Part shown: one piece after another, positions 6,912 through 34,473 of the stretch
Position numbering within the stretch: position 1 is the first letter of the stretch
Layout of the letters: the number at the start of each line of letters is the position of its first letter
IMG/VR virus record: IMGVR_UViG_3300035703_000266
Location: 1-34,473 of that record
DNA from: a virus
Reading direction: 5' to 3' (one strand)
DNA: 34,473 nt
The notes under the pieces: model-generated
Databases searched by the model: none
Told to the model about the DNA's origin: nothing
The model's input: only the letters and a program-made list of their open reading frames with translations
Made by a program: the position numbers and the translations under genes

Positions 6912-7470
6912 TAAACGCCTCCATGGCCGCGGCAGGGGCTGCGGCACCACGGGTGATGCCAAAGTCATCCGCAGCAGATGGCTTGGCACCACCCAGCGGC
7001 TGGCCCTTCTTGACCAGCAAGATGTTGTTCAGGCCGAACGACACCCCGTTATTGCCTGCCTGAGAGTAGGCATAGGCATTCAAGGACACGCGCACAAAGT
7101 CGCCACTCACGATGTCATCAGACCCAATCAGGTCATTGCCATGCGTGTCGATTGCACCCGGCTTGCTGGTGCTTTTGACGTTGCAAAAGTAATGGCCCTG
7201 ATACTCGCGGCCCAGTGGGCTGCCATCGGTCTTGGTTTCGGTGTCACCGTCTCTCAGAGGATTACGCACGTTCTTGGGGATCTTGTCGCCAAACTTGGCA
7301 GCCAATGCCTCTTTGGCCGCAGCCTTCATGGCGCTCAAGGTGGCCGTGTCGGTCTTGGGAATCAGGATCTGGGTGCTGAATTCATCCTTGCCATTCATCT
7401 CATTCTTGCGTGCCTGCAAGGCCGAGAAGTAAGAGGTGCGCACCTCGCCAGTTGTCACACGTGTAGTCAT
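6898..7470 (-). CDS. DUF2815-type single-stranded DNA-binding protein
   Basis: A 190-residue protein resembling the DUF2815 / T7 gp2.5-like group of phage ssDNA-binding proteins. It has an N-terminal strand TTGEVRTSYFSALQARK, the segment FSTQILIPKTDTATLSAM, a central NPLRDGDTE turn, and the strand-rich NDLIGSDDIVSGDFVRVSL followed by an AYAYSQAGNNGVSFGLNNI block. The C-terminus is Ala-rich and ends in an acidic/aromatic tail (EAFNDEW), as expected for ssDNA-binding proteins that recruit partners. An AGGA lies eight bases before the ATG. It is transcribed divergently from the SNF2 helicase. Family assignment is from pattern memory. Confidence 0.8.
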   Translation of the reverse strand: MTTRVTTGEVRTSYFSALQARKNEMNGKDEFSTQILIPKTDTATLSAMKAAAKEALAAKFGDKIPKNVRNPLRDGDTETKTDGSPLGREYQGHYFCNVKSTSKPGAIDTHGNDLIGSDDIVSGDFVRVSLNAYAYSQAGNNGVSFGLNNILLVKKGQPLGGAKPSAADDFGITRGAAAPAAAMEAFNDEW

Positions 7471-9958: not shown

Positions 9959-12103
9959 ATGAGTATTTTACCTGATCAACACGGATCAACATTCGACCAG
10001 TCTCAGGCCATGGCGCTTAAGCTAGGCAACGCCTACCCAGCCGCTAATTTCTGCACCTTCAGCCTCGACGGCTCCAAGAAACTCCCCTACAAACGTGACG
10101 GCTCCATGGGTGTGGCCCGAGACACCCCACCCGAACTCTTGTTCACCACCGAGGACATCTGGGCCATGGATGCCATGCCTCACGGCCAATACTTCGGTTT
10201 GGTGCTACAAAAGGCGGCAGCCATCCCTACCAAGGGCCATCTGGTGGTCTTGGACGTTGACCTCAAGCACAGCCAGACCACCACCAACATGGCGATTCAA
10301 AAGATGGCCCGGTGGGTCAAGGCCAACAAAGCCCTGACTGAAATCTCAGTCTCAGGCAAGGGCCGCCACATATTCCTGATCGCCAAAACGGCCGAGAACA
10401 TCCTCCCCAAGTACAAGCTGGCCGCAGGCCAAGAGGTCGAGGTCTTTGGCCTCGATAACAGCGCAGGCAAGTCAGTGCTGCTCAGTGGCTCCCAACTCAC
10501 TGGCGACATCATCGAGGTGGATGATCTGCACGCTCTCTTAACCGAGTGGGGAATCATCGAGCAGCACCAACTGAACCAGCCCAAGCCAGCACCACAAGCC
10601 CCCATCGACTTCAGCCCCATCCTCAAGCCCCAAGACGATTACGCCCGTGCGGCCAATGCCCTCCAGTTCATCAGCCCTGATATTGAGTACGACCAATGGA
10701 TTGAACTAGGCCAAGCCCTCCACACCGCCTTTGGCGGCCAAGGCAAGGACTTGTGGCAGCAGTGGTCATCATCTGGCTCCAAGTACCAAGGCGACAAGGA
10801 CATCGACACCCACTGGAAGTCCTTTCACCAAGGCAAAGGCGTAACCCTTGGCACGCTGTTCCACACGGCAAAGCAAAACGGCTGGGAGTCACCCACCAAA
10901 GCCACTGAGCGTAAATCAGCCGTGGAAGACTTCCAAAACATATTGAATCCAGTACCTGTTGCGACAGGCTCACCGGATGAGCCACTGCCATTGAATGCAC
11001 TGCAAGGATGGCCGGAACTCACACTAGACATCTCCAGCCTCAAGCCGATTGAATACCTGATCCAAGGCTTTTGGGCGCATTCCTTCTTTGTCTTGGCAGG
11101 GCAGCCAGGAGTTGGCAAGACCACGGCCATGATCGCCGCCTGCATGGTCATGGCCGGGTTCCAGATTGGTGATGCACCACTGACCGCCAAAACCCGCCGC
11201 AAGACCATATTCGTCACAGAAGACTCAGACCAGATCACCCGCACCCTGTTTGCCTATTCCAAGCACTTCCACATCGACCCCATGGAACTGCTGAACTGGT
11301 TTGTGGTGATTGATGCCAAGCGCTCGGATGTCAAGGATCTGCTCACGCTGGCCCACAACGTCATGCGCCACACGGTCGATGGCATCCGGCCACACCTGGT
11401 GCTGGACACGGCCAACAGCACCATGGCGATTGACAACGAGAACGACAACTCCGAGGTCGGCAGCTACCTCGCAGCCCTCAAGCAGACCATCTACGTCCAA
11501 CTGCACACGCCCATCTCCATCCTGACCCACACCAATAAAACCATCTCAAGACAAGACTCAGATGCCATGGCCCGTGGAGCCAGTGCCTTCACAGGTGATG
11601 CCACCCTGACTGGCATCTTGTTCATGGACGAGGACAACACCCGCTACCTGAAACTGACCAAAACCCGCTACGAGCCAGATTTCAGGGAAATCAGGTTCGA
11701 CAGTCAGCTATTTCCCGAAATCGTGATCGACCAGAACGGAGAGCCACAGACCATGTTGTGCCGCATCGCCATCCCAATGGCCTCCAGTGAGACTGACCGC
11801 AAGCAACTCAACGCCGCCAAGATGGAAGACAAGCGCCAGCAGCAGATCACCGATGCCGCTGATGCCGCCTGCAACTTCATCCAGACCCTGATCAATCAGC
11901 ACCATAACGTCATCATGCGTAAGGGGCCAGGTCGCCCAAACGTGCCAAAAGAACTGTCAGATGCCTATCAATTGGAGTGGCAAGAGGTCTACCAAGCCGT
12001 GCCAAGTGCCGACCAGTCCTATGCCAGAAAGGCTGTTGGGACTGCCATATTTCAGCGGTTTGGCATTGCACCAAGTGCCAGTGGTTGGGTCAGATTAGTC
12101 TAA
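9959..12103 (+). CDS. Primase-polymerase / PriCT-2 / AAA helicase replication protein
   Basis: A 714-residue multidomain protein with AAGGAG before its ATG. Residues about 20-200 look like an archaeo-eukaryotic-type primase-polymerase: VVLDVDLKH (D99, D101) and SGKGRH (132-137). Residues about 228-308 match the primase C-terminal 2 pattern (YDQWIELGQALHTAFGG, then WSSSGSKY and THWKSFH). A RepA/RecA-like ATPase follows with Walker A GQPGVGKT (381-388) and Walker B HLVLD (D483). The C-terminal 90 residues are variable and basic and could contact DNA. Its stop codon forms part of the first of several TAATCCGGTA iterons, so it is the best candidate initiator for the adjacent origin. No DNA polymerase gene accompanies it, so host polymerase is probably used. 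Confidence 0.88.
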   Translation: MSILPDQHGSTFDQSQAMALKLGNAYPAANFCTFSLDGSKKLPYKRDGSMGVARDTPPELLFTTEDIWAMDAMPHGQYFGLVLQKAAAIPTKGHLVVLDVDLKHSQTTTNMAIQKMARWVKANKALTEISVSGKGRHIFLIAKTAENILPKYKLAAGQEVEVFGLDNSAGKSVLLSGSQLTGDIIEVDDLHALLTEWGIIEQHQLNQPKPAPQAPIDFSPILKPQDDYARAANALQFISPDIEYDQWIELGQALHTAFGGQGKDLWQQWSSSGSKYQGDKDIDTHWKSFHQGKGVTLGTLFHTAKQNGWESPTKATERKSAVEDFQNILNPVPVATGSPDEPLPLNALQGWPELTLDISSLKPIEYLIQGFWAHSFFVLAGQPGVGKTTAMIAACMVMAGFQIGDAPLTAKTRRKTIFVTEDSDQITRTLFAYSKHFHIDPMELLNWFVVIDAKRSDVKDLLTLAHNVMRHTVDGIRPHLVLDTANSTMAIDNENDNSEVGSYLAALKQTIYVQLHTPISILTHTNKTISRQDSDAMARGASAFTGDATLTGILFMDEDNTRYLKLTKTRYEPDFREIRFDSQLFPEIVIDQNGEPQTMLCRIAIPMASSETDRKQLNAAKMEDKRQQQITDAADAACNFIQTLINQHHNVIMRKGPGRPNVPKELSDAYQLEWQEVYQAVPSADQSYARKAVGTAIFQRFGIAPSASGWVRLV

Positions 12104-12280
12104 TCCGGTAATCCGGTAGTAATCCGGTAGTAATGCGGTATACCGGATTAGACAATGGCTGGGTCTGGGGATTAAGTGGGGGCTATTTGCCCCACTTATC
12201 CACAGGCCAGTCTCGGACAAATGCTTGGTTCTGGGGCTAATCCGGTAAGGCGGTAAATTCCTTTGGGGTCTACCGGATTA
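12101..12280. repeat. Iteron array TAATCCGGTA (origin candidate)
   Basis: Direct copies of TAATCCGGTA lie at 12101-12110, 12109-12118, 12120-12129 and 12238-12247. A one-mismatch copy (TAATGCGGTA) is at 12131-12140. Inverted copies TACCGGATTA lie at 12141-12150 and 12271-12280. A perfect 8-bp hairpin (arms 12174-12181 and 12190-12197) sits between the two groups. The array begins at the stop codon of the primase-helicase gene. Clustered short repeats next to a replication-protein gene are the hallmark of iteron origins in plasmids and some phages; the origin function is inferred. Confidence 0.75.
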
Positions 12281-12356
12281 GGAATACTCATAAGGTATAC
12301 AGATTTTTAAGGGGTAAATTGATGATGATTTCAGAGTTATCCACAGGTTATCCACA
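12196..12356 (+). promoter_or_regulatory. DnaA boxes beside the iterons
   Basis: Three perfect TTATCCACA boxes: 12196-12204 (overlapping the 3' arm of the hairpin), 12337-12345 and 12348-12356. The last two are tandem 11-base repeats of GTTATCCACAG, one helical turn apart, and lie inside the first codons of the next gene. The sequence is the classical bacterial DnaA consensus, so host DnaA is the expected ligand. Function is inferred. Confidence 0.75.
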
Positions 12357-12669
12357 GGCTGCAAGCTGGGTCGAGGATGACCGCGTTTTGTGCCAAAACT
12401 GCGCTAATGCGGTAGAGGTGGATTGCAAGCAGTCCATGCCAGCAGAGCAGATGGAAAAGCACCGCAAAGTCAACGCAAGGCCGCTGCAATGGATGTTCGA
12501 CAATGCCAAGGTCAGGAACGGCTGGGCGACAGTGACATGGAAGGAATGGCAGTGCCAGGCAACTGGTATGTCCACACTGCCCATGGATCTCAAGCACCGC
12601 TGCCATTTGTATTTGAAGGCAACAGCCAAGCCATCATCGGTAGAATCCGAGGCATGGTGGCAAGACTGA
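12322..12669 (+). CDS. Small hypothetical protein, gene starts inside origin-like region
   Basis: A 115-residue protein. The start is one of the ATGs at 12322 or 12325; AAGGGG at 12309-12314 favours the first, and a TTG at 12319 is also in frame. Residues include a CxxC pair (VLCQNCANA) and further cysteines, plus a Trp-rich stretch (MFDNAKVRNGWATVTWKEWQ). Its third to twelfth codons contain two DnaA boxes, so the N-terminus is constrained by DNA function. It overlaps the VRR-NUC gene by 16 bases. I recognise no family; a small metal-binding protein is possible. Confidence 0.55.
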   Translation: MMISELSTGYPQAASWVEDDRVLCQNCANAVEVDCKQSMPAEQMEKHRKVNARPLQWMFDNAKVRNGWATVTWKEWQCQATGMSTLPMDLKHRCHLYLKATAKPSSVESEAWWQD

Positions 12670-13031
12670 GAAAAAGCATCGAACACACTGAGCAGGTCAA
12701 ACTGGTGCAGCGGGTCCGAGCGTTTTATCCAGATGCCATCATTGCGGCAATACCGAATGGAGGCGATAGAACGGCCTCAGAGCGCGTTAGGCTGCATGGT
12801 GAGGGGGTACTGGCTGGAATGCCTGATCTGTGCGTCCTGGAGGCTTGTGGAGGGTTCCACGGGCTGTTTGTGGAGATGAAGACGGCCACAGGGCAGCAGA
12901 GCAAAGAGCAGAAGGCTTTGCAGTTGCAATTAAACAACAGGGGATACCTCTGCACGGTCGCACGGTCGGCAGCAGAAGGTTTTGAAATGATTAAGGAGTA
13001 TCTGAATGGCAAGCGCAAACACACTGTCTGA
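12654..13031 (+). CDS. VRR-NUC domain nuclease
   Basis: A 125-residue protein matching the stand-alone VRR-NUC nuclease pattern found in many phages. It has AAIPNGGDRT (about residues 31-40), GEGVLAGMPDL with D58, FVEMK with E74 and K76, EQKALQLQLN with Q86, and a C-terminal RGYLCTVARSAAEGFEMIKE. These residues form the PD-(D/E)XK active site. The family is linked to cleavage of branched DNA; a resolvase-like role in phage replication or packaging is likely but not proven. ATG 12654 has GAGG only one base upstream, so the GTG at 12657 is an alternative start. It overlaps the small terminase gene by 26 bases. Confidence 0.87.
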   Translation: MVARLRKSIEHTEQVKLVQRVRAFYPDAIIAAIPNGGDRTASERVRLHGEGVLAGMPDLCVLEACGGFHGLFVEMKTATGQQSKEQKALQLQLNNRGYLCTVARSAAEGFEMIKEYLNGKRKHTV

Positions 13032-13500
13032 AGTGGCTGACAACATTGCCGCCAGGCAGATGAATCAACGCGAGATGGCAACCGTTGATCGCCAAGAGAT
13101 GAGCGCCATCAATAAAAAGATCCACGCCTTTGGCGGTGAAGCTATGCTCTTTGACCATATCGCACAAGGTAAGACCGTGGATTCGATGATTAAGGCGCTC
13201 GGGGTGAGCATTGGCGGCTTTTACAAATGGGTTGATAGGGATGCAAAGCGGGGAGAGCTTCTCGCTCGCGCACGCACGCGAGGTGGGCAGAGTTTAGCCG
13301 AGCAGACGCTGGAGATCGCCGACAGCGCGACCCCGCAAGAGGCGCAGGTCGCCAAGCTGCGCGTCGATACGAGGCGCTGGCTGGCCTCCAAGATGAACGA
13401 TGACTATGGCGACAAGCAACAGCCGCTGGTCAACATTGACCTGGGCAGCATGGCGCTCGATGCGCTGCGCAAACGCAGCATAGTGAATACCAACGACTGA
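13006..13500 (+). CDS. Putative terminase small subunit (TerS-like)
   Basis: A 164-residue protein with AAGGAG before its ATG. A helix-turn-helix-like segment (TVDSMIKALGVSIGGFYKWV, about residues 57-76) is followed by RARTRGGQSLAEQTLEIAD and then VAKLRVDTRRWLASKMNDD with YGDK. This matches Sf6-type small terminases and related phage DNA-binding proteins. It would recognise the packaging site and load the large terminase. It is unusual in lying 2.7 kb from the large terminase, with an origin-like region and nine small genes in between. The assignment rests on motif pattern; a plain transcription regulator is the alternative. Confidence 0.75.
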   Translation: MASANTLSEVADNIAARQMNQREMATVDRQEMSAINKKIHAFGGEAMLFDHIAQGKTVDSMIKALGVSIGGFYKWVDRDAKRGELLARARTRGGQSLAEQTLEIADSATPQEAQVAKLRVDTRRWLASKMNDDYGDKQQPLVNIDLGSMALDALRKRSIVNTND

Positions 13501-13835
13501 CGCTGCTTCATACAACGTCCATTATGTTAAGTCGATGCTGAGATATCCACAGATTTATGGATACGTTTGGTATAGGTTTGTAGTTATCCACAGGAATCTG
13601 TGGATAACTGTGGACAAAAACCTGTGGATAGATGGACTCGACCAGCCGACCTGGCCGCGCTGACCCCCCCCCTTGGGCCGCCGCGGCGGGGGCGGCTGCT
13701 GCGGTACTTGACACCCATCTACATCCCCTCATCCAAAAAAAAATTTTTTAACTTCATCAAAAAATGACTCTTAAGCACTTGCACCCCATCACCAACTTGC
13801 CTTAAACTGCAATTCCTATCAACCTGGAGTAAACG
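13501..13835. other. Non-coding DnaA-box cluster with GC palindrome and A/T tract (second origin candidate)
   Basis: This 335-base stretch has no gene. It holds DnaA-box-like sites at 13543-13551 (ATATCCACA), 13584-13592 (TTATCCACA), 13599-13607 (inverted perfect box), 13609-13617 (TGTGGACAA) and 13623-13631 (TGTGGATAG). AGTTATCCACAG (13582-13593) and CTGTGGATAACT (13598-13609) form a perfect 12-bp inverted repeat with a four-base spacer. Downstream are nine Cs (13664-13672), the perfect 12-base palindrome CCGCCGCGGCGG (13678-13689) and an A9T6 run (13735-13749). An initiator-binding cluster followed by an AT-rich unwinding tract is typical of DnaA-dependent origins; a packaging site is also possible next to a TerS gene. 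Confidence 0.65.
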
Positions 13836-34105: not shown

Positions 34106-34473
34106 ATGGCACTTACCGTCGAACAGCTGTACCAGCAATATGCAGGCCGCCCAGGTGACCCAGGCGGCATAAATTACTTCAACCAACTGTTTGGCGCTGA
34201 AATTGATCCCTCTGAAGTGGCCCGTTTTCAGACTGCTATTGCCGAGGCGCGTGCGCAGGGGTCTGAGCCTGCACCTGCGCCTGCGTTGACAGTCGAACAG
34301 CTTTACCAGCAATATGCAGGCCGTCAAGGTGACCCAGGTGGCATAAATTATTTCAACCAACTGTTTGGCCCAACGATTGAGCCTGAAGAGGTTGCCCGTT
34401 TCCAGACTGCTATTGCCGAGGCGCGTGCACAGGGGTCTGAGCCTGCCACAGGTGCTGCCACAGGCACAGGTGC
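34106..34473 (+). CDS. Virion protein with DUF4214-like repeats, 5' part (continues at position 1)
   Basis: The ATG at 34106 follows an AGGAG seven bases upstream. The part in view encodes two copies of the 58-residue DUF4214-like domain (VEQLYQQYAGR..D.GGINYF, then EVARFQTAIAEARAQG) and the beginning of an Ala-Thr-Gly linker. The gene runs off the end and continues at position 1 through the 25-base overlap, giving four domain copies in total. Copies two and three are nearly identical in DNA, copies one and four are more divergent. DUF4214 modules are known from secreted or cell-surface proteins; here one sits in a virion operon, perhaps binding host surface material. Partial only because of the window boundary. 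Confidence 0.85.
   Translation, partial: MALTVEQLYQQYAGRPGDPGGINYFNQLFGAEIDPSEVARFQTAIAEARAQGSEPAPAPALTVEQLYQQYAGRQGDPGGINYFNQLFGPTIEPEEVARFQTAIAEARAQGSEPATGAATGTG
34449..34473. repeat. Terminal direct repeat (right copy)
   Basis: These 25 bases are identical to bases 1-25. See the left copy for the frame test that supports circular closure. The repeat lies in the 18-base tandem linker repeat of the DUF4214 gene, between domain copies two and three. Confidence 0.85.

Follow-up and report, generated by a model that had tools for sequence, protein, structure and literature searches.

Within the window, the whole 34.5-kb virus record analysed here (34,473 nucleotides, from a freshwater phage whose portal and capsid proteins are of the SU10 type), positions 12101-12414 are likely to be the phage's own replication origin, with the C-terminal domain of the primase-helicase RepA reading the iterons and host DnaA helping; from sequence comparison, we give this reading a probability of about 0.85. 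The origin is placed here because of the skew minimum, the least stable DNA segment, the DnaA boxes (kept in 88 of 90 loci) and the concerted change of the iterons among relatives. The plasmid-type origin beside an initiator gene that the first-pass annotation of this DNA had proposed is strongly supported by the same skew, stability and iteron evidence, together with the layout described below.

Layout of the probable origin region

The features of the region, in window coordinates, are the following.

12101-12110, + strand: iteron 1, exact TAATCCGGTA, holding the repA stop codon TAA (12101-12103)
12109-12118, + strand: iteron 2, exact TAATCCGGTA, overlapping iteron 1 by 2 bp
12120-12129, + strand: iteron 3, exact TAATCCGGTA
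12131-12140, + strand: iteron 4, TAATGCGGTA, one mismatch
12141-12150, - strand: iteron 5, exact TAATCCGGTA, inverted, closing the left block
12173-12198, no strand: hairpin TAAGTGGGG...CCCCACTTA, abutting DnaA box 1
12196-12204, + strand: DnaA box 1, TTATCCACA
12238-12247, + strand: iteron 6, exact TAATCCGGTA, right block
12246-12255, + strand: degenerate iteron TAAGGCGGTA, two mismatches (a perfect TAATCCGGTA in relative L007)
12271-12280, - strand: iteron 7, exact TAATCCGGTA, inverted, closing the right block
12276-12326, no strand: putative unwinding element, the least stable 50-bp window of the genome (stability scan)
12337-12345, + strand: DnaA box 2, TTATCCACA
12348-12356, + strand: DnaA box 3, TTATCCACA
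12405-12414, + strand: distal iteron TAATGCGGTA, within the coding sequence of the next ORF (12322-12669)

The iterons are arranged in two blocks: the left one has direct copies at 12101, 12109, 12120 and 12131, spaced by 8, 11 and 11 bp, and an inverted copy at 12141, and the right one has a direct copy at 12238 (plus that at 12246) and an inverted copy at 12271. Eight matches to TAATCCGGTA with at most one mismatch occur in the window compared with 0.36 expected, all of them within 12101-12414, and none of 100 shuffles reached this number. The seven iterons of the first-pass annotation (five direct, one of these mismatched, and two inverted) are found at exactly the positions given, as are its three perfect DnaA boxes at 12196, 12337 and 12348 and the stop codon in the first iteron, which begins with the TAA; the degenerate copy at 12246 and the copy at 12405 are additions to it. 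The perfect hairpin that it described is also present, but with arms of 9 bp (12173-12181 and 12190-12198) rather than 8 bp and a loop of 8 nt, and the 3' arm enters DnaA box 1. An Rfam search gave no match, and a scan for intrinsic terminators found none at the hairpin, where a T run is absent.

In all 12 genomes compared, each of about 34-40 kb, the minimum of the detrended cumulative GC skew lies 16-223 bp before the repA stop codon. At fourfold sites, the skew is strongly negative upstream (-0.27) and neutral downstream (+0.03) and varies by gene; therefore, the skew step is partly of coding origin, and the skew serves as supporting evidence only. Among the 50-bp windows, the least stable starts at 12276 (rank 1 of 34,423 in this genome), in the stretch that separates the last iteron from the tandem DnaA boxes, and the corresponding minimum in the relatives is low but not the lowest (top 0.3-6%). 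As in iteron-type origins, short direct repeats stand beside the initiator gene, and an easily melted AT-rich segment stands beside the iterons and DnaA boxes.

The ORF at 12322-12669 (115 aa, with the CxxC motif WVEDDRVLCQNC) is conserved but has no family match. Its first codons carry two DnaA boxes and one iteron, so that selection at the DNA level and at the protein level overlaps there.

Conservation of the layout and pairing of the iterons with the RepA C-terminal domain

From 22 close relatives and further sets, 90 distinct repA/origin loci were collected; since these loci and genomes share ancestry, the counts given here are not independent. The conservation in relatives that the earlier annotation had named as a check was found behind repA in about 90 distinct loci. 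In all 90 except the L009/L010 cassette type, the same order is kept: the left block at the stop codon, the hairpin or another palindrome by a DnaA box, the right block, and one or more further DnaA boxes, the DnaA spacing being somewhat different in the TCGRAGATACC clade (L023, L103-L138). In 74 of the 90 loci, the distal iteron is found at +287 to +311; across 42,759 positions at +400 to +900, its patterns were matched 0 times. Allowing up to one mismatch, 2-4 DnaA boxes are present in each of 88 of the 90 loci, compared with 0.067 expected per 330 bp, which is the rate upstream in the same loci at the same threshold. The hairpin shows paired changes in relatives (GTGGGG/CCCCAC to ATGGGG/CCCAT; AAGTAGGG/CCTACTT), and in part of the L023 clade, it is replaced by other palindromes. 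In L009, L010 and L172, no DnaA box with at most one mismatch is found at 0 to +420 after the repA stop codon; at about +110, a perfect 18-bp palindrome, TGCACACATATGTGTGCA, present once per locus, replaces the hairpin and DnaA box. The left-block word was found in 57 IMG/VR stretches: in 54 of them, it follows repA directly, and the remaining 3 contigs begin there; satellites or decoys carrying the origin without repA were sought among these 57 stretches, and none was found.

RepA itself is composed as follows.

9959-12103, + strand: RepA, 714-residue primase-helicase (Pfam, full-length model, PDB fold matches)
residues ~10-200: NrS-1-like AEP primase-polymerase domain (Pfam, PDB fold match)
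residues 232-304: PriCT_2 domain (Pfam)
residues ~350-609: AAA_25/RecA-fold RepA-type helicase (Pfam, RecA-fold PDB matches)
11789-12100, + strand: putative iteron-binding C-terminal domain, residues ~611-714 (AlphaFold model; tracks iteron type)
residues 687-700: predicted recognition helix SYARKAVGTAIFQR in the C-terminal domain (AlphaFold model)

The AEP fold is matched by PDB entry 7rr3 (E 1.7e-10, fold search with the model), and the residues of the catalytic DxD and H motifs (D99, D101 and H137) are invariant. The helicase is assigned to AAA_25 by Pfam and matches the RecA folds of Rad51, Dmc1 and Twinkle in the PDB, which places it outside the SF3/D5-like and DUF927 helicases; neither Rep_3 nor RepA_N is among the Pfam matches of the protein. 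Plasmid matches span at most one third of RepA, and no close plasmid relative was found. The full-length model has a mean pLDDT of 72, with low confidence in the helicase part, and the model of the C-terminal domain has a pLDDT of 82. In the latter, a long helix at residue 611 comes first, close to the cassette break described below, and the predicted order of the domain (helix-strand-strand-helix-helix-strand) would fit a winged helix. Pfam gave no family for this domain, no solved structure in the PDB matched the predicted fold (best E 3.5), and in the fold search of the PDB and BFVD, the sole match was its own homologue.

At least six iteron types occur (TAATCCGGTA, TAAACCGGTA, TAATGCGGTA, TAATGCGGAA, TCGACCGGACG, TCGGAGGGACG and TCGRAGATACC), and the iterons change in concert: the words vary between clades, mostly one type is used within a genome, and the layout is kept. 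The C-terminal domain was compared in this respect with the primase, PriCT, helicase, TerS, VRR nuclease, PD-(D/E)XK, SNF2 helicase and ORF116 proteins. Over the 90 loci, its distance gives the highest correlation with iteron distance (r 0.86), ahead of the helicase (0.78), ORF116 (0.58), VRR (0.53), primase (0.50) and TerS (0.28). Given the C-terminal domain, no other protein adds anything (partial correlations of -0.23 to 0.04), while the C-terminal domain given the helicase retains a partial correlation of 0.52, which was reached in 0 of 300 permutations.

Natural exchanges point the same way. Between L008 and L009, identity is 100% in the primase and 99% in helicase residues 480-600 but 47% in the C-terminal domain; their origins are mostly 20-50% identical in nucleotides, with unrelated iterons, and from +320 on, the identity returns to 95-100%. 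The exchanged cassette thus spans approximately 620 bp, from about -300 to +320 around the repA stop codon. L172 compared with L009 is the reverse case, with an unlike N-terminal part, a cassette 91-100% identical and a left break again near -300, and in L015, the primase is unlike (23-45%), while the C-terminal domain is 76-80% identical and the iteron is the same. Because domain and origin were exchanged as one cassette between L008 and L009, the C-terminal ~100 residues of RepA are most likely the part that reads the origin iterons. What the comparison of loci shows is where the origin lies, that its layout is conserved and that the domain is paired with the iteron type.

The first residues of helix 687-700 in the model vary by iteron type (QSYARKAV, QSYSRRAV, AGYIRKHI, RSDTRKAI, RGDTKKAI and KGDVKRAI). 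A strict one-residue code in this helix was considered and rejected: in L117-type loci, the left block has GGGACC-like iterons and the right block GATACC, and near-identical domains accept changes at iteron positions 5-6. In fact, near-identical C-terminal domains are paired with TAAACCGGTA in L034/L075 and with TAAAGCGGTA/TAAACAGGTA in L080; therefore, the iteron centre is not strictly read. Column-wise mutual information between domain and iteron was set aside as confounded by ancestry. The relatives of the window phage offer naturally matched domain-iteron pairs, covering at least six types of iteron, together with a swap experiment made by nature. With such pairs, a small domain and short oligonucleotides allow direct tests of the protein-DNA recognition rules and of what DnaA does. 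It may be, and we put this forward tentatively and at somewhat below even odds, that the C-terminal ~100 residues represent a new family of sequence-specific DNA-binding domains, and that domain and matching iteron origin move together between phages as a cassette of ~600 bp that can be exchanged; related phages would thereby switch origin specificity in one recombination step and possibly escape decoy origins or incompatibility.

Proposed initiation mechanism and alternative readings

We infer the following course for physical binding, ring loading, the roles of DnaA and the hairpin, and the use of the host polymerase. RepA would bind the short iterons via its C-terminal domain (~611-714), most likely with helix 687-700, and the two blocks of direct and inverted iterons would load RepA rings on either side of the segment holding the hairpin and DnaA box 1. 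Host DnaA at the three boxes may aid the opening of the AT-rich segment 12276-12326, after which the RecA-fold helicase of RepA would unwind the DNA. On the single strand exposed in this way, the AEP primase domain could then start DNA chains, with the hairpin as a possible site, and a host polymerase would probably take over. As for the joint action of the phage protein and host DnaA suggested in the first-pass annotation, covariation and cassette exchange lend indirect support to the binding of RepA to the iterons, and the DnaA part is plausible but weaker, with boxes in 88 of 90 loci but none at the origins of L009, L010 and L172.

An oriC-like arrangement, in which DnaA is the main initiator and the RepA iterons only regulate DnaA or load the helicase, would suit the three perfect boxes, two of them in tandem by the AT-rich segment, and their wide conservation. 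It is nevertheless unlikely, given the box-less stretch in L009, L010 and L172: the helicases of L009 and L010 are nearly identical to that of L008, and these two loci retain only a distant box cluster, 1.45-1.53 kb away. DnaA is probably a helper, since the origins of such swapped-cassette relatives lack a DnaA box, and the boxes are not indispensable to the architecture, since the L009-type cassette has the TGCACACATATGTGTGCA palindrome and no box there. That distant cluster (13543-13631, five boxes with at most one mismatch), which is conserved in most relatives including L009/L010 and is followed at 13731 by an AT-rich stretch, the second least stable segment of the genome, might itself be taken for the real origin. 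However, it is without iterons, the skew minimum lies 1.4 kb off, and it is missing in G010, G012 and MW202879, all of which keep the iteron origin, so that this reading is very improbable. A role as a DnaA sink or control site is possible for the cluster. It lies behind terS, at +1430 to +1550 in most relatives (it is missing in the MW202879 clade), and two of its five boxes form a TTATCCACA...TGTGGATAA palindrome.

Two further readings give the iterons another function. The repeats might be operators through which RepA or another phage regulator represses the downstream operon, with the origin elsewhere; they do lie between two genes, the right block just upstream of ORF116, and a repressor would covary with its operators too. 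This is improbable, as the skew minimum, the least stable segment and the DnaA boxes all indicate an origin, and a scan of 11800-12700 found no promoter-like site, although RepA may autoregulate on top of its origin function. The repeats might also be a pac site read by TerS, the small terminase subunit, since pac sites are often near terS and this gene (13006-13500) lies 0.9 kb downstream. This reading was rejected as highly improbable because TerS does not covary with the iterons: its correlation of 0.28 falls to a partial of -0.02 given the C-terminal domain, L015 has the same iterons with a TerS only 53% identical, and L012 has different iterons with a TerS 79% identical. In addition, a pac site would not be expected to come with DnaA boxes or a skew minimum.

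Comparison with known initiators and further observations

Compared to known systems, the reading of 12101-12414 as a RepA-dependent origin has its closest analogies in initiators that carry their own origin-recognition domain. SaPI Rep and SCCmec Cch2 are described as self-loading initiator helicases with a short-iteron origin directly downstream (Ubeda et al. 2007, PMC7581432), and according to the same account, they recognise it by the C-terminal domain, which for Cch2 bound in isolation (PMC7581432). The likeness, by analogy, lies in recognition by a helicase C-terminal domain and in the origin directly behind the helicase gene. However, those helicases belong to chromosomal islands and are of the DUF927 or D5-like kind, whereas RepA is a tailed-phage protein that joins a RecA-fold AAA_25 helicase to an AEP/PriCT_2 primase and ends in an unclassified domain, and DnaA boxes are present here. 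P4 alpha is described as uniting primase, helicase and C-terminal DNA-binding domain on one polypeptide that binds origin repeats (PMC4234260), functions that RepA would similarly combine; its primase is of the Toprim type and its C-terminal domain a winged helix, whereas no solved winged helix could be matched to that of RepA. As described, RSF1010 (IncQ) has a helicase (RepA), a primase (RepB'), iterons and stem-loop single-strand initiation sites (PMC4234260), elements shared with the window phage, but there, three proteins are used and RepC reads the iterons, whereas here, all functions appear to reside on one chain.

pRN1 ORF904 and the BPP-1/BIP-1 type phages have a prim-pol, a helicase, a C-terminal DNA-binding domain and an origin-like stem-loop behind the gene, and no specific binding could be shown for them (PMC4234260). 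They resemble RepA in this order of parts and differ in the SF3 helicase, the large stem-loop and the lack of iterons. The PrimPol-PV1 AEP proteins (PrimQH family) carry a RepA-type helicase and a C-terminal WH domain suggested to recognise origins (PMC5862659); the combination of AEP, PriCT, RepA-type helicase and C-terminal domain is shared with RepA as a likeness and not as a family assignment, and the origin role there is a suggestion without origin sequences (PMC5862659). For fusions of AEP primase and RepA helicase, C-terminal origin recognition had thus been suggested previously from domain order (PMC5862659).

Repeats are also found behind more distant helicases. In L181 and L182 (31-33% identity), GGGACATTGG/CCAATGACCCC repeats lie just behind the helicase stop codon, in the same position, which suggests that the arrangement may be older than the clade of the window phage. 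In L101, a Methylophilales contig, a distant helicase (37%) is followed by TTGGAATA/TTGGAATG tandem-like repeats (7300-7450). At the ends of the window itself, positions 1-25 and 34449-34473 are identical over 25 bp within a CAGGTGCTGCCACAGGCA repeat stretch, which would fit either a circular or permuted genome or an assembly that ends in a repeat.
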